DNA of 64,000 bases. Origin: Bacteroidales bacterium. Its GTDB lineage: Bacteria; Bacteroidota; Bacteroidia; Bacteroidales; FEN-979. Shown in pieces: positions 12,076 to 64,000 of the stretch. A program made the position numbers and the translations under genes. The notes beneath the pieces were generated by a model. That model was not told where the DNA came from and ran no database searches. It worked only from the letters and a program-made list of their open reading frames with translations. Location: positions 1 through 64,000 of the forward strand of contig JADGPR010000007.1 of NCBI GenBank assembly GCA_017882335.1, read 5' to 3'. Numbering within the stretch: the first letter of the stretch is position 1; every line of letters begins with the position of its first letter.

Positions 12076-13065
12076 ATGAAAGAAATTAATTCTCCAGGGG
12101 AATTTATGGAGATGGTCAATGCATTCCGGATAAGCAGGATCATCCTCACAGCGCATGAACTGAACCTCTTTACACTTCTAAAAGATGGTCCGCTTACCTC
12201 TCCGGTTATGGCAAAGGCAATTGGAGCCAATGAACGTGCAACCGACCGGCTCATGAATGCGCTGGTTCCCATCGGGCTGTTGAAAAAAGCCGGCAGTCAA
12301 TTTTCCAATTCGGATTTCTCGACCCGTTTCATGATCAAAGGACAGCCCACCTATATGGGTGGCGTCACCCACCTGGGACATTTGTGGAAGACCTGGAGCA
12401 CATTAACAGAGGCCGTGAAAGCCGGGACATCGGTGGCAGTGAAACAGTCGATCGGTAACAGGGAAGAGGTCTGGCTCGAATCCTTTATTGCAGCCATGCA
12501 TTCAAGAGGCCTTCAGCAGGCAAAAGAGATTGCAGCAGTGCTGGATCTTTCACAAACCAGACAGGCGCTCGATATTGGCGGCGGATCAGGTGCGTTCACT
12601 TTTGAGTTCATCAGGGAAAACCCTGCAATCAGGGGAACCATCTTCGATCTTCCCAATGTGATTCCGATCACCCGGCAATACATATCACATGAAGGATTTG
12701 ATGATTCGGTTACCACGCTTGCCGGCGATTACCTTAAAGACAAGTTCGGTTATGATTATGACCTGGTTTTCGTCTCTGCTGTCCTTCACATCAATTCGCC
12801 TGAAGAAAATATGCTTCTCATTAATAAGTGTGCCGAAGCATTGAATCCCGGCGGTCAGTTGGTCATCCTTGACCACATCATGACAGATGACCGGACCGGA
12901 CCGGCAGTGGGCGCCTTCTTTGCCCTGAATATGCTGGTAGGGACTGAAAAAGGAGATACCTATACCGAAAAAGAGATTAAATTGTGGATGCAGGCTGCCG
13001 GATTCAAATACATCCGCAGAAGAGATACCCCGCAGGGATCGAACATGATGATCGGGATTAAGTAA
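12076..13065 (+). CDS. SAM-dependent O-methyltransferase-like protein
   Basis: N-terminal winged-helix dimerisation-like region; ALDIGGGSGAFTFEF; GGQLVILDHIMTDDRTGPAVGAFFALNMLV. Confidence 0.85.
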   Translation: MKEINSPGEFMEMVNAFRISRIILTAHELNLFTLLKDGPLTSPVMAKAIGANERATDRLMNALVPIGLLKKAGSQFSNSDFSTRFMIKGQPTYMGGVTHLGHLWKTWSTLTEAVKAGTSVAVKQSIGNREEVWLESFIAAMHSRGLQQAKEIAAVLDLSQTRQALDIGGGSGAFTFEFIRENPAIRGTIFDLPNVIPITRQYISHEGFDDSVTTLAGDYLKDKFGYDYDLVFVSAVLHINSPEENMLLINKCAEALNPGGQLVILDHIMTDDRTGPAVGAFFALNMLVGTEKGDTYTEKEIKLWMQAAGFKYIRRRDTPQGSNMMIGIK

Positions 13066-13159
13066 ATTACGAATTACGAATTACGATTTCCGATTTCCGA
13101 CCTCTGACCTCCGACTTCTGAACTCAATTGTCAATTATCCATTATCCATTATCAATTAC
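13062..13159. repeat. Drifting 7-nt array between the convergent methyltransferase and dnaE stops
   Basis: ttacgaa ttacgaa ttacgat ttccgat ttccgac ctctgac ctccgac ttctgaa ctcaatt gtcaatt atccatt atccatt atcaatt. Confidence 0.85.
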
Positions 13160-16100
13160 CCGGCCCTTGGATCCTTCTTCAACGGCATCTTCGCCATCTT
13201 CTGAACCTCCATGCTGGGAAACCCGAATTCCTCCACGATCTTGCCCAAAACAAGGTAGATCCCGTCGCCACGGAAAGGATAATTCTTAGCGGAATCGGGA
13301 AAATGAACCGTGTCGAAGAAATGACCTGTAATATCGATGAACGTCCCGAAATGCATCCATTCCTTTTTCACGGTTCTCACATATTTGATAGTCACAAGCT
13401 GGCCCAGCATTCTCACCTTCTTCCCAAGGGAACCAATCATCTCCTTTGCCATTATTTCCCCACGGAAAGCGGTTTCGAGCAGGTCGAAATAGGTATGTTT
13501 AACCGGAAATCCGAGCAGTTCCACTTCATCGTAAACATCTTCCACTGTATTTTGTTTCAGGGAAGGTAATTCGTATGTTTTAGGCGGCGTATAGAAAAGA
13601 ACGGGATTTATAATTTCAGATTTACGATTTACGATTGAATTTTTGATTGATGATTGACGGTTGATGATTCGGGTTGATGATTTCGGGAGTTCAGCATTTT
13701 TGCCTAGTATCAGGTGGGTTTCCCAGAGAAGTTGGGCCTTTGATTTCCCGGTAAAACGCAATGCCCCGATGCGGATAAGAATGATCATTTGCTCAAGGCT
13801 CGTTCCCGTTCTCGCGATAAAATCCTCCAGGCCGAGATATTCGCCATTCGCTTTTCGCTCTTCGCTGATGGCCTTACCTACCTGGCTTTCCAGGTTTGCC
13901 ACATGAACAAATCCAACATAAATGTCGGTTCCGGTGATGCTCGTTTTATAGTCGCCGCGGTTGATACAGGGAAGATGAAGGGTAGCGCCGCAGTTGCGGG
14001 CTTCATTAAAGTAAACCCACGAACTGTAGAATCCTCCAAAGTTATTGATCACACCGGTCATGAATTCCAACGGGTAATGGGCTTTCAGGTAGAGGCTCTG
14101 GTAGCTTTCCACGGCATAGGATGCCGAATGGGCCTTGGAGAAGGAATAACCGGCAAAGGATTCGATCTGCCGCCAGACCTCTTTCGTAACCTCTTCAGGG
14201 TAACCGAAATTCCTGCAATTCTCAAAGAATTTGTCGATGATCCGTTGCAGTTCCTTTTTTGAACGGTATTTCCCGCTCATGGCCCTGCGCAGCACATCAG
14301 CATCTGCCAGGTCGAGTCCGGCAAAATAGTGACAGATCTTCAGCACATCTTCCTGGTACACCATCACCCCATAGGTTTCCTTCAACTGTTCTTCCATCAC
14401 AGGATGCAGGTATTTGAATCCCGGGTGATGAAACCGGTAAATATACTCGCGCATCATACCCGAACGGGCCACACCCGGGCGGATGATGGAGCTGGCTGCG
14501 ACCAGGCTGCGGTAGTTGTCGCATTGCAGCTTTTTCAATAATCCGCGCATGGCAGGACTTTCCACGTAAAAACAGCCGATGGTCTCCCCTACCCCGAGCA
14601 GGTGCTTTATCTTTTCGTCTTTTTTAAATTCCTGTACCCTGTGAACATCCACATGCACGGCACGGTTCCCAAGGACGATCTCAGCTGTTTCCCTGATGTG
14701 CCCGATGCCACGCTGGCTGAGGATATCCAGTTTTTCGAAGCCGATGTCTTCTGCCACATACATATCCCATTGCGTGGTCGGAAAACCTTTGGGAGGCATA
14801 TCCAGGGCGGTGTAGCAGGTGATTGGTTCATCTGAGATCAGCACTCCTCCTGCATGAATGCTGCGGATGTTCGGGAAATCGACCATCATCCTCCCGAGTT
14901 CGCTGATCCTGCGGGTAACCTCATTATTATGGATCTCCTTTTCAGGATATTTCAGAAGATCGTCCATCTCCCCTTTTGGGATGCCATGTACCTTCCCAAG
15001 TTCCCGGTAGATCGAATTACCTTTGAACGTTGACATGGCGCCAAGCAGGGCAGTATGCTTGTGGCCATAGCGTTTGAAGATATAATCCAGCACTTCGTCC
15101 CTTTCCTTCCAGGAATAATCGATATCAAAATCGGGAGGAGATGTCCGTTTCGGATTTATAAAACGTTCGAAGTAAAGATCAAGCTCAATGGGATCCACGT
15201 CGGTAATCTTCAGGCAATAGGCCACTATGCTGTTGGCGCCACTGCCACGGCCCACATGATAAAATCCCCGCGACATAGAATAGCGGATGATGTCCCAGGT
15301 TATGAGAAAATAGGATGAAAAGCCCATTTTATCGATGATCTCAAGTTCATGTCTCACACGTTTTGCTGCTTCGCGGTTGGACTTTCCATAACGGTATATC
15401 AATCCGTCGTTGGCAAGCTTTTCAAGCAGGGTCTTGTCATCATAGGAATTCCCGGTAAAGGTCTTCCTGTTTTTATGAGAAGAAAAATCAAAATCGATCG
15501 AGCATTCCCCGAGCAATTGTTCCGTATTCCGGATCAGCTGAGGGTAATCTTTGTAAAGATTTCTCACCTCCCCTTCCGGGATCATCTTTTCACCCGGAGC
15601 AGCCAGTTGTTCAGGGCGGAGCCGGCTGAGGAGGATGTTGTTATCGACGGCCCGCAGGTTGCAGTGCAGGTCGTATTCCTTTTCATTGGTAAAAGTAACC
15701 GGGGCGAGGATGACAGCGCAGTCAAGGATATTTTTGTCATTGATGGTTGCGAGTTTACGGATGAATGAAGGATGAACGCCAAGAACCCCTCCCCCTTGCC
15801 CCCTCCCCATTTGGGGAGGGGGATGGGGGGTGGGGCTAAATGGATAAATTACCGCCACATTTTCAAACTCCGGGGCCTGGTTGGGTAGCGGTAGTCCATT
15901 GAGGGTATGAACTGAAAGGAACTCATTCAGCTCACGAAAGCCTTCATTATTCCTGGCCAGGCCGATGTAAAGCAACTTCTCATCCCTGCGGAACTCAATT
16001 CCTGCGACAGGCCTGATCCCGTTCTCCCTGCAAGCCTTCACAAAATAGATGATGCCGGTGGAATTGTTGATATCGGTGAGTGCCAGGGTGGTGACCCCGC

Positions 16101-16182
16101 ATACCTTTGCCGTTTCCACCAATTTTTCAATGGAAAGGGTGCCGTAGCGCAGGGAATAATATGAGTGACAGTTTATAAACAA
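13156..16182 (-). CDS. dnaE: DNA polymerase III alpha subunit (DnaE-type, short form; candidate translesion polymerase)
   Basis: PHP start FINCHSYYSLRYGTLSIEKLVETA; PPDFDIDYSWKERDEV; HVGRGSGANSIVAYCL; FAGYSFSKAHSASYAVESYQSLYLKAHYPLEFM. TTG start at 16182. Confidence 0.93.
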   Translation of the reverse strand: MFINCHSYYSLRYGTLSIEKLVETAKVCGVTTLALTDINNSTGIIYFVKACRENGIRPVAGIEFRRDEKLLYIGLARNNEGFRELNEFLSVHTLNGLPLPNQAPEFENVAVIYPFSPTPHPPPQMGRGQGGGVLGVHPSFIRKLATINDKNILDCAVILAPVTFTNEKEYDLHCNLRAVDNNILLSRLRPEQLAAPGEKMIPEGEVRNLYKDYPQLIRNTEQLLGECSIDFDFSSHKNRKTFTGNSYDDKTLLEKLANDGLIYRYGKSNREAAKRVRHELEIIDKMGFSSYFLITWDIIRYSMSRGFYHVGRGSGANSIVAYCLKITDVDPIELDLYFERFINPKRTSPPDFDIDYSWKERDEVLDYIFKRYGHKHTALLGAMSTFKGNSIYRELGKVHGIPKGEMDDLLKYPEKEIHNNEVTRRISELGRMMVDFPNIRSIHAGGVLISDEPITCYTALDMPPKGFPTTQWDMYVAEDIGFEKLDILSQRGIGHIRETAEIVLGNRAVHVDVHRVQEFKKDEKIKHLLGVGETIGCFYVESPAMRGLLKKLQCDNYRSLVAASSIIRPGVARSGMMREYIYRFHHPGFKYLHPVMEEQLKETYGVMVYQEDVLKICHYFAGLDLADADVLRRAMSGKYRSKKELQRIIDKFFENCRNFGYPEEVTKEVWRQIESFAGYSFSKAHSASYAVESYQSLYLKAHYPLEFMTGVINNFGGFYSSWVYFNEARNCGATLHLPCINRGDYKTSITGTDIYVGFVHVANLESQVGKAISEERKANGEYLGLEDFIARTGTSLEQMIILIRIGALRFTGKSKAQLLWETHLILGKNAELPKSSTRIINRQSSIKNSIVNRKSEIINPVLFYTPPKTYELPSLKQNTVEDVYDEVELLGFPVKHTYFDLLETAFRGEIMAKEMIGSLGKKVRMLGQLVTIKYVRTVKKEWMHFGTFIDITGHFFDTVHFPDSAKNYPFRGDGIYLVLGKIVEEFGFPSMEVQKMAKMPLKKDPRAG
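13615..13677. repeat. 7-nt array inside the dnaE coding sequence
   Basis: ttcagat ttacgat ttacgat tgaattt ttgattg atgattg acggttg atgattc; encodes part of the linker STRIINRQSSIKNSIVNRKSEIIN. Confidence 0.7.
15786..15836. repeat. GC-rich palindromic element inside the dnaE coding sequence
   Basis: ccctcccccttgccccctccccatttggggagggggatggggggtgggg; perfect stem ccctcccc-attt-ggggaggg; encodes SPTPHPPPQMGRGQGGG. Confidence 0.8.
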
Positions 16183-16193
16183 TTTACAGATTC

Positions 16194-16238
16194 AGTTTAT
16201 AAAGTTTTTAAAGTTCATAAAGTTTATAAAGGTCATTA
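16194..16238. repeat. 9-nt array upstream of dnaE
   Basis: agtttataa agtttttaa agttcataa agtttataa aggtcatta; agtttataa also occurs at 16170-16178 within the first dnaE codons. Confidence 0.75.
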
Positions 16239-16275
16239 AATCAGCCTATAGAGATTCACCATATTTGATATTTTC

Positions 16276-17052: not shown

Positions 17053-17140
17053 TATTCGCTATTTCGCTATTTTTTTTCACTCACCAGCTCACCAGTTCGC
17101 CAGTTCGCCAACTCATCAGCTCGCCAACTCGCCAACTGTA
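17053..17140. repeat. 8-nt array running into the dinB C-terminus
   Basis: tattcgct atttcgct attttttt tcactcac cagctcac cagttcgc cagttcgc caactcat cagctcgc caactcgc caactgta; 11 units in one phase. Confidence 0.85.
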
Positions 17141-18288
17141 TTCACCGCCACGGCCCTCCGGATGATCTTCCTCCCATACTTTCCCCGGATCCGGTCCATC
17201 GCCTGGTACAGGTTGATCATCTCCACCGAATCCTCGAACAGGTCAATCTGCTGGCTGCCGGGAACCAGCTTGCTGAAACGTACCCCGATCAGGCGGATCA
17301 GCATACGGCGCTGGTACAGCTTGTCGAACAGCTCTTTCACAATGGGAATGAGGACATGGTCGAAGGCCGTGTAAGGAACCTGTTGCTGGATGGTATGGGT
17401 ATCAAAATTGGAATACCGGATCTTGACCGTCACGCAGGCGGTGAGTTTTTGCTGCTCACGCAGTTCATAAGCGATCTTTTCAACCATCTTCACCAGGATT
17501 TCCTTCATCCGGATAATATCGATCGTATCCTGTTCAAATGTAGTCTCCGTGCTGACGGATTTACTCTCCGAATATTGCCTCACCGGAGTCGTGTCGATGC
17601 CGTTGGCCCGTTCCCACAGGATGATGCCGTTCTTCCCCATCACCCGTTCCATCATTTCCAGGGGAATGCGGCTCAGGGTATCGATGGTGGCAACTCCCAT
17701 GGACCGGAGCAAAGGATAGGTCTTCTCCCCTATTCCCGGTATCTTCCGGATGGACAAAGGAGCAAGGAACGGTTTCACATGATCTTCCGGAACCTGCAAC
17801 TCCCCGTTCGGCTTGGCTTCGCCGGTAGCGATCTTCGAAACGGTCTTGTTTACCGACAGTCCGAAAGAGATTGGCAATCCTGTATTCTTCATGATCGCCG
17901 TACGAAGCTCGTGGGTCCATTTCAGCAGGCCGAAGAAACGATCCATGCCGGTCACATCGAGATAATGTTCATCGATAGAAGCTTTCTCATACAACGGCGC
18001 TTTTTCGGCGATGATGTCGGTAACCAGGAGCGAATAGCGTGAATAAAGTTCCATATCGCCCCGGATGAATACGGCATCCCGGCACATCATCCGGGCCATC
18101 TTCATGGGCATGGCCGAGCTGACGCCGAAACGGCGGGCCTCGTAGCTGCAGCTTGCCACGACGCCCCTGTCGGACATCCCGCCGATGATCACCGGCTTGC
18201 CTTGCAATGCAGGATTTTGCAAGCGTTCCACCGATACAAAGAAGGTGTCGAGGTCAAAATGGACGATATTGCGGTTGGCGGTCTTCAT
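17116..18288 (-). CDS. dinB: Y-family DNA polymerase IV
   Basis: NIVHFDLDTFFVSVERLQNPALQGKPVIIGG; YEKASIDEHYLDVTGMDRFFG; KIPGIGEKTYPLLRSMGV. Confidence 0.95.
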   Translation of the reverse strand: MKTANRNIVHFDLDTFFVSVERLQNPALQGKPVIIGGMSDRGVVASCSYEARRFGVSSAMPMKMARMMCRDAVFIRGDMELYSRYSLLVTDIIAEKAPLYEKASIDEHYLDVTGMDRFFGLLKWTHELRTAIMKNTGLPISFGLSVNKTVSKIATGEAKPNGELQVPEDHVKPFLAPLSIRKIPGIGEKTYPLLRSMGVATIDTLSRIPLEMMERVMGKNGIILWERANGIDTTPVRQYSESKSVSTETTFEQDTIDIIRMKEILVKMVEKIAYELREQQKLTACVTVKIRYSNFDTHTIQQQVPYTAFDHVLIPIVKELFDKLYQRRMLIRLIGVRFSKLVPGSQQIDLFEDSVEMINLYQAMDRIRGKYGRKIIRRAVAVNTVGELAS

Positions 18289-28648: not shown

Positions 28649-28744
28649 AGTAAAAAAGTAACAGAGTAACAGAGTCACAAAGTCACAAAGTAAAATTGAA
28701 AAAAAACTCGCCAGCTCGCCAGTTCGCCAGCTCATCAGCTAAAC
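28649..28744. repeat. Composite 8-nt array (12 in-phase units)
   Basis: agtaaaaa agtaacag agtaacag agtcacaa agtcacaa agtaaaat tgaaaaaa aactcgcc agctcgcc agttcgcc agctcatc agctaaac. Confidence 0.9.
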
Positions 28745-31700: not shown

Positions 31701-31756
31701 ATTAATTATCAATTATCCATTATCAATTATCAATTGCTTATTGCCTAATGCCTCTT
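31701..31756. repeat. 7-nt array running into the 3' end of the DEAD helicase gene
   Basis: attaatt atcaatt atccatt atcaatt atcaatt gcttatt gcctaat gcctctt; stop codon at 31745-31747 lies inside. Confidence 0.85.
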
Positions 31757-36517: not shown

Positions 36518-36605
36518 CTGGCGAACTGGCGAGTTGATGAGCTGATGAGTTGGTGAGTTGGCGAGTATATTTATTTACTTTGTGACTCTGTAACTTTGTG
36601 ACTTT
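36518..36605. repeat. 8-nt array beginning at the base after the recR stop
   Basis: ctggcgaa ctggcgag ttgatgag ctgatgag ttggtgag ttggcgag tatattta tttacttt gtgactct gtaacttt gtgacttt. Confidence 0.9.
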
Positions 36606-36610
36606 TATTT

Positions 36611-36645
36611 AGCATCCAGCATCCAGCATCCAGCATCCAGTCTTC
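36611..36645. repeat. 7-nt array (AGCATCC)n ending at the stop of the convergent gene
   Basis: agcatcc x4, then agtcttc. Confidence 0.85.
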
Positions 36646-38305: not shown

Positions 38306-38368
38306 TAATTATGGGTATTAGGTATTGGGTTTTGGGTTTTAAGTTTTAGATTCTGGATGCGGCATGCT
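38306..38368. repeat. Drifting 7-nt array upstream of glmM
   Basis: taattat gggtatt aggtatt gggtttt gggtttt aagtttt agattct ggatgcg gcatgct. Confidence 0.8.
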
Positions 38369-38488
38369 GCCTTACTGTTGTAGGCAGGTATACTCACAAA
38401 AGTAAAGTTTTTTTAATGTCTGGTAAAGATGTTGTTGAAAAAAAATAAAATCTGGGCCATGGCTGGAATCGTCCTCATTTATTTTTCG

Positions 38489-50470: not shown

Positions 50471-52592
<2,122 letters not shown>

Positions 52593-53330: not shown

Positions 53331-53402
53331 TCTAAGTGTTAAGTGATTAAGTGTTAAGTATTCATTACTTTATGAACCTTAAAAACTTTATAACTTTCTA
53401 CT
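53331..53402. repeat. 7-nt (TTAAGTG) and 9-nt (ACTTTATAA) array block
   Basis: ctaagtgttaagtgattaagtgttaagtattcattactttatgaaccttaaaaactttataacttt. Confidence 0.7.
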
Positions 53403-54447
53403 CAAGTGAAACGTTGCCAAACTCACTTCTCACGATCACCTTTCCTTCCGGGTTCGGTTTTTTACCCACTGTCGCCCTGAAAGATTTTGAAGTAGTTGAA
53501 ACAATCTTCTGTGTAATGGTAGCCTGGTCTTCCGGGAAGTCGAGATCACAGAATTTCAGATCGGCGTCGAGGGTATAGCTTGTACCTGCCGGGATGTTGA
53601 CCGACACATCGCCATATTTATTTCTGACCGAGACCAGTGTAAAGTCAGCAGATATCTGGTCCACATCGCAGTTTCCATATTGAATATCAAGATCGATTTT
53701 TTTATCAAGGTGACTAAAGCTCAAGTCGGAAAATTTTGATTTACCGGTTACAGCAGAGGAGTTCTCAACATCAACTTTTCCGCCTTCAAAACCGATGGAA
53801 AGAGAGATGATCTTTCCGCCTTCGAGGTTGGAAAATTTCGAATCGACAAAAAGGCTGCCTGCATATTCCACTTTCATCTCCGAATATTTCAGCGAAACCA
53901 TGGCGCCGGTAATGTATTGTATGTCTCCTTTCCCGAAATTGATATTAATCACATTATCGGAATTCATCAGCTTATTGATTTCTATATTACCATAGGAAAT
54001 ATAAAAGTTTCCTTTCCCTGAAAGTTCATTCAGGAATACATCTCCAAACTTGTTGGTAAGGTTGAGGTTGACAGTTACCGGCATATTCACCGTGTAATCC
54101 ACATTGACCGTGGAATTGCCGGAGAAACCTTCCTTGTCGAACACGGTCCTGGTTTCAACCTTCGAAGGGTTTCCTTCGCTGGCAATACTGACAAGGTCAA
54201 GGAGTTTATTTGCCTTTTCAAGGCTGGAAGCGGTTACCGTTATCCTGATTTCAATGGATACCAGGTTTTTGTCCCAGTTGTTGCAATGGATCTGCCCAAA
54301 TTTATTTTCAAGAAGGACCCGGGCATCGGGGTTCACGGTATATTCCTTTTTGATCACTTTGGTGTAATCATCGTGTGCGCTGGATCTTCCGGGAAGAAGG
54401 ATAAAGATCAGCAGCAGCACGGGTAGAATTTTATAAAGCGTTTTCAT
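53398..54447 (-). CDS. DUF4097-like beta-repeat protein
   Basis: Signal peptide; KEYTVNPDARVLLENKFGQIHCNNWDKNLVSIEIRITV...LKYSEMKVEYAGSLFVDSKFSNLEGG. Confidence 0.7.
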   Translation of the reverse strand: MKTLYKILPVLLLIFILLPGRSSAHDDYTKVIKKEYTVNPDARVLLENKFGQIHCNNWDKNLVSIEIRITVTASSLEKANKLLDLVSIASEGNPSKVETRTVFDKEGFSGNSTVNVDYTVNMPVTVNLNLTNKFGDVFLNELSGKGNFYISYGNIEINKLMNSDNVININFGKGDIQYITGAMVSLKYSEMKVEYAGSLFVDSKFSNLEGGKIISLSIGFEGGKVDVENSSAVTGKSKFSDLSFSHLDKKIDLDIQYGNCDVDQISADFTLVSVRNKYGDVSVNIPAGTSYTLDADLKFCDLDFPEDQATITQKIVSTTSKSFRATVGKKPNPEGKVIVRSEFGNVSLE

Positions 54448-54454
54448 GGAAGGA

Positions 54455-54573
54455 TAGTTTTAAGTATTAAGTTTTAAGTGTTAAGTTCTGGGTTTTAGGC
54501 ACTAGGTATTGGGTACTGGGTTTAATTATCAATTATCAATTATCAATTATCAATTATCAATTGTCAATTATTT
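54455..54573. repeat. Drifting 7-nt array, 17 in-phase units
   Basis: tagtttt aagtatt aagtttt aagtgtt aagttct gggtttt aggcact aggtatt gggtact gggttta attatca x5 attgtca attattt. Confidence 0.95.
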
Positions 54574-55101
54574 TCTTTTCATCTGGTTTACGACTTGATT
54601 CATCACTTTTTCTTTCATCTGGTGGTTTTGGATAATGGCTGCCTGGATCCGTTCATTACCGGGATTCTCCGATAAAATTTTTTGAAGTTCTGCCGAATTT
54701 GCATTCAGCGTTTCCATCTCATTGTTTGCCATGGAATGGACTTTTCGGGTATCCTGTCCGCAGCATGCCAGTTTATCGATCTGTCCTAGTTTGGCAGAAG
54801 CAGCATCATCATAATAGTTAATGGCATCCTGCATTTCGGCGGGGACTATAGCTGATTTGCTTTCACCTGAAAGGTTTTTCGAAATACGGTTTGCAGCGAA
54901 ATCGAAGATATAGACGGAAACCGTCAGGAATATAAGCAACCCTGCAGCGATCTTGAGGAGGAAATTTTTATCGATGGCAAACCAGGAATGGGACTGTTGC
55001 TGATCCAACTTTTCTTCAAACCTGCTGAAATGCCCGGTCAGCGGTTCAGCATCGTCGAACGACTCGCGGTTTTTAGTAATAAATTTTTCCAGCTTATCCA
55101 T
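54568..55101 (-). CDS. Single-pass membrane protein, candidate anti-sigma factor
   Basis: Cytoplasmic-like N-terminus, one TM (FLLKIAAGLLIFLTVSVYIFDFA), directly downstream of the ECF sigma gene. Confidence 0.5.
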   Translation of the reverse strand: MDKLEKFITKNRESFDDAEPLTGHFSRFEEKLDQQQSHSWFAIDKNFLLKIAAGLLIFLTVSVYIFDFAANRISKNLSGESKSAIVPAEMQDAINYYDDAASAKLGQIDKLACCGQDTRKVHSMANNEMETLNANSAELQKILSENPGNERIQAAIIQNHQMKEKVMNQVVNQMKRK

Positions 55102-56652: not shown

Positions 56653-56708
56653 ATGGCGGACAGGCGAATTGGTGCCGTGGTGTAGTGGTGCCATGGTGAA
56701 GTGGTGAA
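56653..56708. repeat. 8-nt array starting at the first base after a TAA stop
   Basis: atggcgga caggcgaa ttggtgcc gtggtgta gtggtgcc atggtgaa gtggtgaa. Confidence 0.88.
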
Positions 56709-56765: not shown

Positions 56766-58196
56766 ATGAAATTCCATCCTGAAAAATTAAGAATATCGGA
56801 TCAGCGGATGAAGCCGTTTATAGATGCTGAAGAGATCTGGGGGTACATTCACCAGTCAGCCCCCGGTAAAAACCGTATCCTGGAGATCGTCGCCAAATCG
56901 CTCGAAAAAAACCGTCTCACTCTTGAAGAGACTGCAGTACTGATCAATGCCAATGATCCGGAGCTGGTGGAAGAGATAAAACAGGGCGCAAAAAGTCTGA
57001 AGGAGAAGGTCTATGGCCAGCGGATCGTTCTGTTTGCCCCGCTGTATGTGGGAAATCTTTGCATCAACAACTGTACTTATTGTGGTTACAAGACCTCCAA
57101 CCAGCACATGAAGCGTATCACACTGACCCACGATGAATTGGTTAACCAGGTGAAGACGCTGGAGGATACCGGCCAGAAAAGACTGATCCTTGTTTTTGGT
57201 GAACATCCGAAATACGATGCAAACTTTATCGCAGATTCGGTCCGGACAGTTTACAGTGTAAAAAGCGGACCCGGGGAAATCCGGAGGGTTAACATCAATG
57301 CCGCACCCCTCGATATTGATGGATTCAGGATCGTCAGGGATGCAAAAATCGGCACCTACCAGATCTTCCAGGAAACCTATCACGAAGGAACATACTGGAA
57401 AGTCCACATGGGTGGTATCAAACGCAATTATGAATGGCGCCTGACCGCGCTCGACCGCGCACAGGAAGCCGGGATCGATGATGTCGGGATCGGCGCGTTG
57501 TTCGGATTATATGACTGGAGGTTCGAGGTGATGGGACTGTTACGTCATACTAACCATTTTGAAGCTTGTTATAATGTCGGGCCGCATACCATCTCATTTC
57601 CGCGTATCCAGTTTGCTTCGGAACTGAACATCGACAAGAACCACCTGGTCAGCGATTACGACTTTACCCGTTTGGTTGCTATTTTACGGCTTGCCGTTCC
57701 CTATACCGGACTGATCTTAACTGCACGCGAATCCTCAGCTATACGGGATGAGATCCTGCAGTTTGGTGTATCCCAGATTGACGGCGGGACGAACATTGAA
57801 ATGGGCGGATATGCCAATAAAAAAGAGAATGAAAAACAGGATATCGATTTTGAACAATTCCAGATCAACGATAACCGTTCGCTGAACGAGATCATGGAAG
57901 AACTGATTGATCATAAATACATTCCCTCCTTCTGCACGTCGTGTTACCGGTCAGGCAGGACAGGCGAGCATTTCATGGAATTTTCCGTTCCTGGGTTCAT
58001 CAAACGCTTCTGCCAGCCTAATGCCATGCTTACCCTTGCTGAATACCTGGAAGATTATGCCCCTGCTGAAACCAAGGCAAAAGGAGAAAAGTTGCTTGAA
58101 GAAAAACTTGGTGAGATGGAGGAAAATGGATTCAAGGAAAAACTGAAGGAAAAGCTCAGATTAGTGAAAGATGGGAAAAGGGATCTTTATTTCTGA
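56766..58196 (+). CDS. hydG: [FeFe] hydrogenase H-cluster radical SAM maturase HydG
   Basis: PLYVGNLCINNCTYCGYKTSN (CxxxCxxC); ThiH/HydG-like core; C-terminal CTSCYRSGRTGEHFMEFSVPGFIKRFCQPNA cluster motif. Confidence 0.93.
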   Translation: MKFHPEKLRISDQRMKPFIDAEEIWGYIHQSAPGKNRILEIVAKSLEKNRLTLEETAVLINANDPELVEEIKQGAKSLKEKVYGQRIVLFAPLYVGNLCINNCTYCGYKTSNQHMKRITLTHDELVNQVKTLEDTGQKRLILVFGEHPKYDANFIADSVRTVYSVKSGPGEIRRVNINAAPLDIDGFRIVRDAKIGTYQIFQETYHEGTYWKVHMGGIKRNYEWRLTALDRAQEAGIDDVGIGALFGLYDWRFEVMGLLRHTNHFEACYNVGPHTISFPRIQFASELNIDKNHLVSDYDFTRLVAILRLAVPYTGLILTARESSAIRDEILQFGVSQIDGGTNIEMGGYANKKENEKQDIDFEQFQINDNRSLNEIMEELIDHKYIPSFCTSCYRSGRTGEHFMEFSVPGFIKRFCQPNAMLTLAEYLEDYAPAETKAKGEKLLEEKLGEMEENGFKEKLKEKLRLVKDGKRDLYF

Positions 58197-58204
58197 AAGT
58201 TTTC

Positions 58205-58231
58205 AACTTTATGAACTTTATAAACTAAAAT
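58205..58231. repeat. 9-nt array between hydG and the next gene
   Basis: aactttatg aactttata aactaaaat. Confidence 0.55.
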
Positions 58232-62257: not shown

Positions 62258-62371
62258 CTGGCGAGTTGGTGAATTGGCGAGCTGGCGAGTAAATTATCTT
62301 TAAGAACTTTAAGAACTTTATGAACTTTATAACTCAATTTTTAATTCTTCATTCTTCATTATTAATTAGTT
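62258..62371. repeat. Composite 8-, 9- and 7-nt array between mtaB and lgt
   Basis: ctggcgag ttggtgaa ttggcgag ctggcgag / aactttaag aactttatg aactttata / attttta attcttc attcttc attatta. Confidence 0.85.
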
Positions 62372-62377
62372 GTTATT

Positions 62378-63535
62378 GTGTTTCCACGTATCTCTGACCT
62401 GATCAATTATCTCCTGGGCACTGACATCAGCCTTCCTGTTAACAGTTATGGTTTCATGCTGGCCATGGCATTCGTTTCCGGTGGATGTGTACTTTGGCTG
62501 GAACTCCGGAGAAAGGAGCGAAAGGGTGAGATTCCTTCCCAACAAAAAAAGGTATTAAAGGGAAGCCCGCCTGACCTGCCGAAATTATTTTTCCCCATTT
62601 TATTTGGGTTTATCCTTGGATGGAAAGGTATCGGGATCATCCTGGATTATGCAGAATTTTCACGGATGCCCAAAGATTATATCCTATCGGGAAAAGGAAG
62701 TATCGCAGGGGCTCTGCTTCTGGCAGTGCTGTTCGGAGGACTTACCTGGTTCCGGATGAAAAAGAAGCAACTGAAAAAGCCAGTTTGGATCGAAGAAACC
62801 ATTCATCCTTATGAGCTTACTGCAATGATCATTCTGGTAGCTGCTGTTTTCGGGATCATCGGTGCCAAGATTTTCGACATGATCGAGCACCTGGATGATC
62901 TGATCCAGTATCCTGTAAGTACTTTGCTCTCTTTCAGCGGTCTTACATTCTACGGCGGGTTGATCGTTGCAGCGTTTGCGGTTCTCTGGTATGCCAACCG
63001 GAACAAAATCCGGTATCCCCTGATGCTGGATGCAGCAGCACCGGGATTGATACTGGCTTATGCCATCGGGCGGATCGGGTGCCAGCTTTCCGGTGACGGA
63101 TGCTGGGGTTTGATAAATGCTGCACCAAAACCCGGCTGGATGGGTTTCCTTCCTGACTGGATCTGGTCATTCCGGTATCCCCATAATGTTATCGATGAAG
63201 GAATACAGATCACAAACTGTACCGGCCCTCATTGTCATATGCTGGTGATCCCGGTTTTTCCAACCCCGTTTTATGAAACTATTCTGGGACTGGTGATATT
63301 CGGTATCCTTTGGGGATTAAGGAAGAAGCTGACGGTTCCCGGGTACCTGTTTTGTATTTACCTGATCTTAAATGGATTTGAACGATTTTTCATCGAACGG
63401 ATCCGGATCAACAAAGTATATGATCTCCTCGGAATTCATCTGACACAAGCAGAGATCATTGCCATCATGCTGGTATTGATGGGAGGATTCGGATTTTGGT
63501 ACTTTAGAATTAAAAATGAAAAATTAATAATCTGA
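62378..63535 (+). CDS. lgt: Prolipoprotein diacylglyceryl transferase family protein (GTG start)
   Basis: SYGFMLAMAFVSG; FSGLTFYGGLIVAAFAVLWYANRNKI; LAYAIGRIGCQLSGDGCWG; TPFYETILGLVIFGILW; NGFERFFIERIRINKVYDLLGIHLTQAEIIAI. Confidence 0.9.
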   Translation: MFPRISDLINYLLGTDISLPVNSYGFMLAMAFVSGGCVLWLELRRKERKGEIPSQQKKVLKGSPPDLPKLFFPILFGFILGWKGIGIILDYAEFSRMPKDYILSGKGSIAGALLLAVLFGGLTWFRMKKKQLKKPVWIEETIHPYELTAMIILVAAVFGIIGAKIFDMIEHLDDLIQYPVSTLLSFSGLTFYGGLIVAAFAVLWYANRNKIRYPLMLDAAAPGLILAYAIGRIGCQLSGDGCWGLINAAPKPGWMGFLPDWIWSFRYPHNVIDEGIQITNCTGPHCHMLVIPVFPTPFYETILGLVIFGILWGLRKKLTVPGYLFCIYLILNGFERFFIERIRINKVYDLLGIHLTQAEIIAIMLVLMGGFGFWYFRIKNEKLII

Positions 63536-63596
63536 TTGCTGGATGCTGGATGCTGGATGCTGGATGCTGGATGCTGGATGCTGGTGAACTGGTGAG
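63532..63596. repeat. 7-nt array seeded at the lgt stop, passing into 8-nt units
   Basis: cTGAttg (ctggatg)x6 ctggtgaa ctggtgag. Confidence 0.9.
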
Positions 63597-63620
63597 TAAT
63601 AAAGAGAATGGTACTTTTAT

Positions 63621-63674
63621 AACTTTAAAAACTTTAAGAACTTTAAGAACTTTAAAAACTTTATGAACTTTATA
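63621..63674. repeat. 9-nt array running into the start of the next gene
   Basis: aactttaaa aactttaag aactttaag aactttaaa aactttATG aactttata. Confidence 0.9.
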
Positions 63675-64000
63675 GAACTGAAAAAGATAACTGAACAGGT
63701 TTGTGAACTAAGTAAACAGACTGCTGAATTTATTCACGAGGAAGTGGATAAGCTACGGACATCCGATATTGAGACAAAAAGCATTCATAATTTCGTTACT
63801 TATGTCGATAAGGTTTCCGAAGAGCGACTGGTGAAAGGGCTTTCGAAGATCATCCCGGGAACGGGTTTTATCGCTGAAGAGAGCCCGGAACTGGAAATGA
63901 AAGAATTGAACTGGGTGATTGACCCACTCGATGGCACTACGAATTTCATCCATGGTGTTCCGGTTTATTCGATCAGTATTGCCTTGATGAATAAAAAAGA
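63663..64000 (+). CDS. Inositol monophosphatase family protein (3' end outside window)
   Basis: FVTYVDKVSEERLVKGLSKIIPGTGFIAEES...NWVIDPLDGTTNFIHGVPVYSISIAL. Confidence 0.9.
   Translation, partial: MNFIELKKITEQVCELSKQTAEFIHEEVDKLRTSDIETKSIHNFVTYVDKVSEERLVKGLSKIIPGTGFIAEESPELEMKELNWVIDPLDGTTNFIHGVPVYSISIALMNKK

Follow-up and report, generated by a model that had tools for sequence, protein, structure and literature searches.

REP and REPIN sequences are numerous short intergenic repeats that are accompanied by few copies of a RAYT gene, each flanked by inverted copies of the repeat. A second known system is the intervening sequence (IVS) of rRNA genes. IVS with an S23 gene (PF05635) reside in the 23S rRNA of Coxiella, Leptospira and Brucella and have been described as selfish; the Coxiella IVS has terminal inverted repeats, is excised by RNase III and carries heptamer repeats of varying number beside its S23 gene (PMC4990558). 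Third, short tandem repeats (STRR) and other long simple repeats, i.e. those of cyanobacteria, GGGAATC in Xanthomonas and TAACTGA in Beggiatoaceae, are intergenic, dominated by heptamers and variable in length at conserved positions (PMC4692102, PMC4679880). For GGGAATC, Rehm et al. counted 70-75 inverted pairs in each genome and in general saw no link to mobile elements (PMC4692102). Finally, the PF05635 protein is said to resemble Avd of diversity-generating retroelements, a member of the same four-helix fold family (PMC10053308). None of the three, IVS elements, S23 proteins or heptamer repeats, is new in itself. The open-access literature searched contained no report of S23 genes that lie between inverted tandem arrays at places other than rRNA, nor of any connection between S23 and orphan heptamer arrays. 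Here, two old puzzles meet: the heptamer repeats that litter some genomes, and the purpose of S23 genes, which are known mainly from fragmented rRNA.

The elements described below, termed cassettes, are about 0.5-0.8 kb long and consist of a purine-rich array of 7-9-nt units, a spacer, a four-helix gene of 110-150 codons and the first array again, inverted. They resemble the 23S rRNA IVS in the PF05635 gene, in terminal inverted repeats forming a long stem and in the heptamers beside the gene, as in Coxiella. Unlike IVS they are situated between protein genes, between tRNA genes and within cas operons; their inverted ends are tandem arrays of drifting units, and orphan arrays of the cassette vocabulary are spread through the genome. 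With the long simple repeats they share the intergenic position, the prevalence of heptamers and a length that varies at conserved positions. However, the STRR reports are centred on a single dominant unit in each genome, and S23 genes are absent from the passages searched (PMC4692102, PMC4679880), whereas here many drifting words are tied to PF05635. As in the REP/REPIN-RAYT system, many short intergenic repeats go together with few gene copies between inverted repeat copies; yet the gene between the arms is PF05635 instead of a tyrosine transposase, and the repeats are tandem arrays instead of 20-nt palindromes. A diversity-generating retroelement is comparable by the Avd likeness; the cassette holds a single short gene.

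Short-period arrays with drifting units

The window, i.e. the whole stretch of 64,000 nucleotides that was analysed, is part of the source genome G000; G001 to G004 denote genomes of the same genus and L numbers are locus labels. Arrays were called by lag-p scoring (match +1, mismatch -1.5) and by Tandem Repeats Finder. At a threshold of 13 lag-p scoring yielded 28 segments in the window. Exactly 22 of these had periods of 7 (12 segments), 8 (6 segments) or 9 (4 segments), the number which the original prediction had put at about 22. Its assertion that periods are 7, 8 or 9 only is almost correct; the other 6 segments have periods of 5, 14, 16, 21 or 23. Both methods agreed on an array at every predicted place with slightly shifted boundaries, although several of those taken as single arrays are two adjacent ones of unlike period (36518-36645, 63532-63674). 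Nearly all are intergenic. Five Markov-1 copies of the window contained no array at a threshold of at least 16, and in five such copies made from G000 intergenic DNA (54.9 kb) there were 0.4 segments per copy; the short-period autocorrelation of the real sequence is far higher in both cases. That the arrays form a genome-wide class was borne out by a scan of 376 kb of G000, which gave 31, 8 and 4 intergenic arrays of periods 7, 8 and 9 compared with 5, 0 and 1 in coding DNA. This is the tandem, intergenic and mostly heptameric arrangement of STRR. Arrays are also present in the independent assemblies of congeners. Both outcomes, the high autocorrelation and the presence in these assemblies, favour the original prediction, which had named such checks. 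The drifting 7-9-nt arrays in the window are thus confirmed as real.

The focal array at 54455-54573 had been described as 17 consecutive 7-mers in one unbroken phase. We found two lag-7 segments. The first (54456-54521, score 19) proceeds from AAGTTTT via AAGTGTT, GGGTTTT and AGGTATT to GGGTACT. The second (54524-54569, score 36.5) is (AATTATC)n and starts, on the minus strand, at TAA, the stop codon of the gene at 54568-55101. The unbroken phase carries weight only where units grade into one another; where GGGTTTA gives way to ATTATCA, the words are unrelated and no register can be defined between them. The drift of the unit under a constant period was corroborated: unit identity falls smoothly from 0.74 for adjacent units to about 0.25 for units at least 10 apart, at variance with the fixed unit per array of STRR. 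Some arrays are nearly pure, e.g. at 63537-63584. The focal array on its own had no significant fold (z -1.2). Its words recur in S23 cassettes. AAGTGTT/AAGTTTT forms both arms at L299 in G000 and at L166 in G001, and the word of the second segment forms the arms at L302 in G000.

At the orthologous site, upstream of the gene at 53398-54447, four of five congeners have an array (G000, G001, G003, G004). In all four, (AATTGAT)n opens the array right at the stop codon of the gene upstream, and later units differ by species, e.g. AACCTGA in G001 and AACCCAG/AACTTAA in G000. No array is present at this site in G002 and in most other genera, and G012, from another genus, has arrays of different words. 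A PF05635 reading frame is absent at the focal array, and no S23 gene or cassette was found at the site in any relative examined. The focal array may be a solo arm of a cassette or sequence exchanged with one.

The window has further arrays. A 7-mer array running from AATTACG via GACCTCC to CAATTATC (13065-13158, lag-7 score 42) fills the gap between convergent stop codons at 13065 (plus strand) and 13156 (minus strand). The 9-mer array AGTTTATAA at 16194-16239 has the word of the cassette arms at L144 in G004, and the 8-mer array CTCRCCAR at 17080-17137 overlaps the final 22 nt of a PolY gene. Two 8-mer arrays, AGTCACAA followed by CTCGCCAG, are located between divergent genes (28649-28740); the word AGTCACAG from this region is the arm word of a G000 S23 cassette at L298/L242. 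At 31701-31753 a 7-mer array drifts from AATTATC to AATGCCT and extends 9 nt into the next gene. Directly after the recR stop codon, at 36518-36640, the 8-mer CTGGCGAG (36518-36566) precedes the 7-mer AGCATCC (36611-36640). The 7-mer array at 38314-38370 changes from GGTATTA via GGTTTTG to GATGCGG. At 52516-52592 the 8-mer AGCGGACA (52516-52555) is followed by the 7-mer GACTGCC (52561-52592), and both are cassette arm words within the genus (L315, L301). An 8/16-mer array, TGGTGCCA, lies behind a plus-strand stop codon (56653-56708, called at 56666-56706). At 62298-62368 the 9-mer CTTTAAGAA (62298-62330) adjoins a 7-mer array (62336-62368). Last, at 63537-63673, (TGCTGGA)7 (63537-63584) is separated by a spacer from (AACTTTATA)7 (63613-63673, period 9).

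A side observation concerns the minus strand at 13159-16182 and 17119-18288. There, a DnaE2-like homologue of the DNA polymerase III alpha subunit (1008 aa) is close to a Y-family polymerase, possibly an error-prone polymerase pair. A gene with an ORF6N domain is placed between them, and the gaps are occupied by arrays.

Array words recur between loci and species

G001, G003 and G004 equal G000 in array richness; G002 and other genera of the family are poorer. Single loci from 79 Bacteroidota records, isolates included, contained 24 intergenic arrays of period 7, which rules out that the arrays are peculiar to a single organism. The same units turn up at different loci: AGCATCC was found in 19 arrays and AATTATC in 14, and several arrays have 9-mers around AAAGTTCAT. 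As an exact word, (GATGCTG)3 is lineage-limited (2 of 296 genomes of the class). In G004 and G001, several loci that are not orthologous match the whole of the region 63537-63682, (TGCTGGA)n followed by (AACTTTATA)n. Its order and orientation recur at several non-orthologous congener loci and make up the left arm of the cassettes L213, L215 and L218. GATGCTG preceded AACTTTATA in 19 cases and followed it in none, a count partly ascertained because many G004 loci were fetched for matching both arrays; the unbiased instances are few (the window, L160 and L161). That one conserved spacer might be what moves these composites in general was dismissed, since only three loci have it in common.

The longest array found, about 480 bp with a 7-nt period, is at 1097-1573 of L260 in G144, which belongs to another family of the class. 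Its units drift strongly (CAATAGG, CAATGAG and others), and G144 also has GATGCTG arrays. Several G004 contigs (C15, C16, C18, C22, C35, C40, C41, C45) end within long GATGCTG arrays. Therefore, array length is underestimated and the assembly is broken by arrays.

PF05635 genes are flanked by inverted arrays

Some loci with common words adjoin PF05635 genes, and this led to the cassettes. The informative context, inverted arms around these genes, is outside the focal coordinates. Above the curated cut-off, PF05635 genes number about 14 in G000 and 21 in G001. Around such genes from the family and order, drifting arrays are on both sides in inverted orientation, as a rule 60-190 bp before the gene and 30-100 bp behind it. 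Left flanks were locally aligned with reverse-complemented right flanks, and a score of at least 40 was considered strong. Strong inverted flanks were detected at 35 of 52 PF05635 genes compared with 11 of 1159 control genes; about a third of the S23 genes are without clear arms. At the same score, flank similarity at S23 loci was inverted in 39/62 and direct in 3/62. Arrays on both sides were present at 38 of 63 S23 genes vs 27 of 659 short control genes. The left and right periods of these two-sided arrays were equal in 36 of the 38, mostly 7, then 8, as in orphan arrays. The arms have a polarity. Purines prevail in the 5' arm of 52 of 57 cassettes (p 6e-11), and G exceeds C in 54. The transcripts of two cassettes fold into a long arm-to-arm stem (z -8.8 in G004, z -5.1 in Nostoc). 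Inverted repeats at both ends, a stem and a PF05635 reading frame are properties of the IVS. Cassettes occur between genes, sometimes within operons or rRNA genes. Those examined in the genus, however, are located between protein-coding or tRNA genes, i.e. outside rRNA genes, and for this reason are not classed as rRNA IVS.

The top PDB match of the S23 protein is 2gsc, XCC0516. To our knowledge the S23 protein is a small four-helix bundle without known catalytic activity or a recognised catalytic domain. We identified no target-site duplication at the cassettes, and a search for PF05635 in phages gave no match. At L308 (G000) and L310 (G004) the S23 gene is positioned between apparent tRNA-Ser and tRNA-Pro genes, as judged by eye. 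L316 (contig C133 of G001) has three S23 genes within 6.4 kb (4397, 5999, 10441), at least two with strong inverted arms.

Filled and empty sites, a scar and concerted arms

Next to the radical-SAM gene ending at 58196 in the window, comparison of orthologous sites revealed a cassette with flanking arrays in G001, G002 and G004 and a short clean spacer in G003. G000 has at 58197-58226 the sequence AAGTTTTC abutting AACTTTATGAACTTTATAAACT, which in all likelihood is a scar, the head-to-head remnant of both cassette arms. As the ancestral spacer may have held TATAAACT, we infer rather than observe loss as opposed to gain at this site. At L302, G000 has a cassette with AATTGAT arms and G004 has arrays without the gene. 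Comparable sites exist in cyanobacteria. On complete Picosynechococcus plasmids one site is filled in PCC 7003 and empty in PCC 7002. One Nostoc site is empty in C057 and UHCC 0926 and holds a full cassette in N. edaphicum and C052; in ATCC 53789 the gene is lacking between the inverted arrays, and N. punctiforme likewise has inverted arrays, of a different word, and no S23 gene. At about 1040-1270 of L338 (N. punctiforme plasmid pNPUN01), inverted AGGCAGA/AGGCAGG arrays enclose some 130 bp without an S23 gene, and other strains are empty. Possibly this array pair is a non-autonomous element.

The two arms of a cassette remain complementary when their word differs between species. For six congener sites the median arm complementarity was 51 within a cassette vs 18.5 across species. 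At one such concerted site the arms are AGTCACAG in G000 and GGACAAGC in G001; another has AGTCGAAAG in G002 vs the 9-mer AAGTTTATA in G004, with S23 proteins 64% identical. The concerted change is a natural experiment in which structure is kept while sequence drifts. Sites B and D, where S23 identity is 91%, retain the arm word. The identity at sites A and C is just 41-59%, and the gene at site C is reversed in G003. This low identity suggests that an old cassette was replaced by a different one rather than that its arms drifted. Non-orthologous S23 proteins which are at least 75% identical have a common arm word in the same sense in 7 of 7 pairs; below 40% identity this applies to 4 of 739 pairs. 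The arm word tracks S23 identity, and hence the cassette behaves as one unit, arm-gene-arm.

Orphan arrays and their possible origin

What then are the arrays without a gene? Orphan arrays have a unit in common with the cassette arms of their own genome in 23 of 47 (G000), 21 of 48 (G001), 12 of 33 (G003) and 11 of 21 cases (G004). Control means, obtained with just as many units taken from the arms of other genera, were 7.0, 3.1, 4.2 and 5.3, respectively. In genomes that have no more than one S23 gene, 169 kb contained 3 arrays; in those with at least five, outside the genus itself, 819 kb contained 56. S23 count and array density correlate moderately (Spearman 0.53, n 48, uncorrected for relatedness); in single-locus genomes the correlation is 0.28 (p 0.10, likewise uncorrected). 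In the genus, an inverted partner within 400 bp was lacking for 113 of the 117 orphan arrays. With partners at only 4/117, the notion that every array is a gene-deleted cassette is ruled out, and orphans are read as single arms or as exchanged array sequence. About 14 S23 genes in G000 contrast with a few hundred arrays, as extrapolated from the 376 kb. The 64-kb window itself contains no S23 gene or convincing remnant (best tblastn E value 0.04, which is chance level).

The observed features are inverted arms, polarity, matched periods, complementary arms of unlike word, filled and empty sites, one scar and a common vocabulary. We consider it probable, with some reservation, that the arrays are a dispersed element family built around S23 cassettes and that those in the window are mostly solo arms or exchanged sequence. 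Of this, the descent of the window arrays from cassettes, as solo arms or by exchange, is demonstrated only in part. The original prediction was right about class, periods and drift, yet incomplete as to the wider distribution, the common vocabulary and the S23 context. If repeats and S23 genes form one element, the repeats would have an origin, and S23, so far an orphan gene, would have a context that includes a purine-rich, paired target.

The following scheme is conceivable. Transcribed arms would pair into one long stem. By analogy with the rRNA IVS, RNase III may clip out or cut the cassette stem, which would make an insertion tolerable. Selection would then act on arm-to-arm complementarity, perhaps on recognition by the cognate protein, and not on the word. 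Template switching between inverted arms is established for quasipalindromes. Together with 7-9-nt slippage it could alter both arms at once, a copying mechanism which we infer; the word would then drift while period and pairing persist. The solo arms in the window would have been left behind when the gene was lost, or conversion would have spread array sequence between loci.

The main rival is plain slippage. Here, the polymerase produces long simple repeats because loops of 7-9 nt escape mismatch repair, point mutations cause the drift, and S23 merely selects arrays for use as stems. In many bacteria no class of long repeats is more abundant than heptamers, for which slippage by about 7 nt has been put forward as the cause (Mrazek 2007, as related in PMC4679880 and PMC4692102). 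The smooth decay of unit identity with separation, the near absence of arrays from coding DNA, the majority of orphans without an inverted partner and the persistence of array positions among congeners while the units change would all fit. Slippage alone, however, predicts neither a vocabulary common to different loci nor the fixed order and orientation of GATGCTG and AACTTTATA, the latter being partly ascertained. Nor does it predict inverted arms at one gene family across phyla and arms that change together. We regard it as possible though rather unlikely. Alternatively, the arrays may be regulatory, i.e. terminators, attenuators or sites for an RNA-binding regulator, as one report suggests for the TAACTGA repeats in Beggiatoaceae (PMC4679880). 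Many arrays indeed abut stop codons or just precede starts. Yet they occur in all gene orientations and beside unrelated genes, their words and even their presence vary among congeners at one site, the focal array lacks a significant fold, and the window has no Rfam match; a regulatory role is thus very improbable. That arrays came first as landing pads into which S23 genes insert, as site F with arrays and a cassette in G000 and arrays without the gene in G004 might suggest, is already disfavoured and hardly credible, since one-way insertion into an array would give direct arms instead of the predominantly inverted ones observed, and since there are clean empty sites free of arrays (G003 at 58197, Nostoc C057 and UHCC 0926, Picosynechococcus 7002).

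Cassettes in other phyla and in cas operons

S23 genes with strong inverted arms are carried by plasmids of Nostoc, Geminocystis, Calothrix, N. punctiforme, Anabaena 90, Oscillatoria and Riemerella. Further examples were found in Pseudanabaena, Brasilonema and Gemmatirosa (Gemmatimonadota). In Nostoc edaphicum the plasmid-borne S23 gene is enclosed by the arms AGGGAACAGGGAACAG ... CTGTTCCCTGTTCCC. On two Nostoc plasmids inverted arms were present at 3 of 3 S23 genes and at 0 of 61 other genes. The cyanobacterial STRR, earlier named as the closest analogy, are relevant, as S23 genes on cyanobacterial plasmids bear inverted heptamer arms. A plasmid of Azospirillum lipoferum holds a cassette whose flanks read as 23S rRNA by eye, the only such copy. 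Extending the S23-cassette reading beyond the genus, we tentatively propose, with somewhat more doubt than conviction, that much heptamer repeat DNA in cyanobacteria, xanthomonads and Bacteroidota represents arms and solo arms of one ancient family of selfish cassettes, in which an S23/Avd-like protein would recognise its own word and which would spread among intergenic and rRNA sites.

S23 is listed among CRISPR-linked proteins (PMC10910872). We found an S23 cassette between cas10 and cmr3 in Picosynechococcus PCC 7003 (L287), and between cas6 and cas4 in Anabaena 90 (L295) and Pseudanabaena galeata (L331). The presence in cas operons, and with it the listing, may simply reflect passenger insertion.
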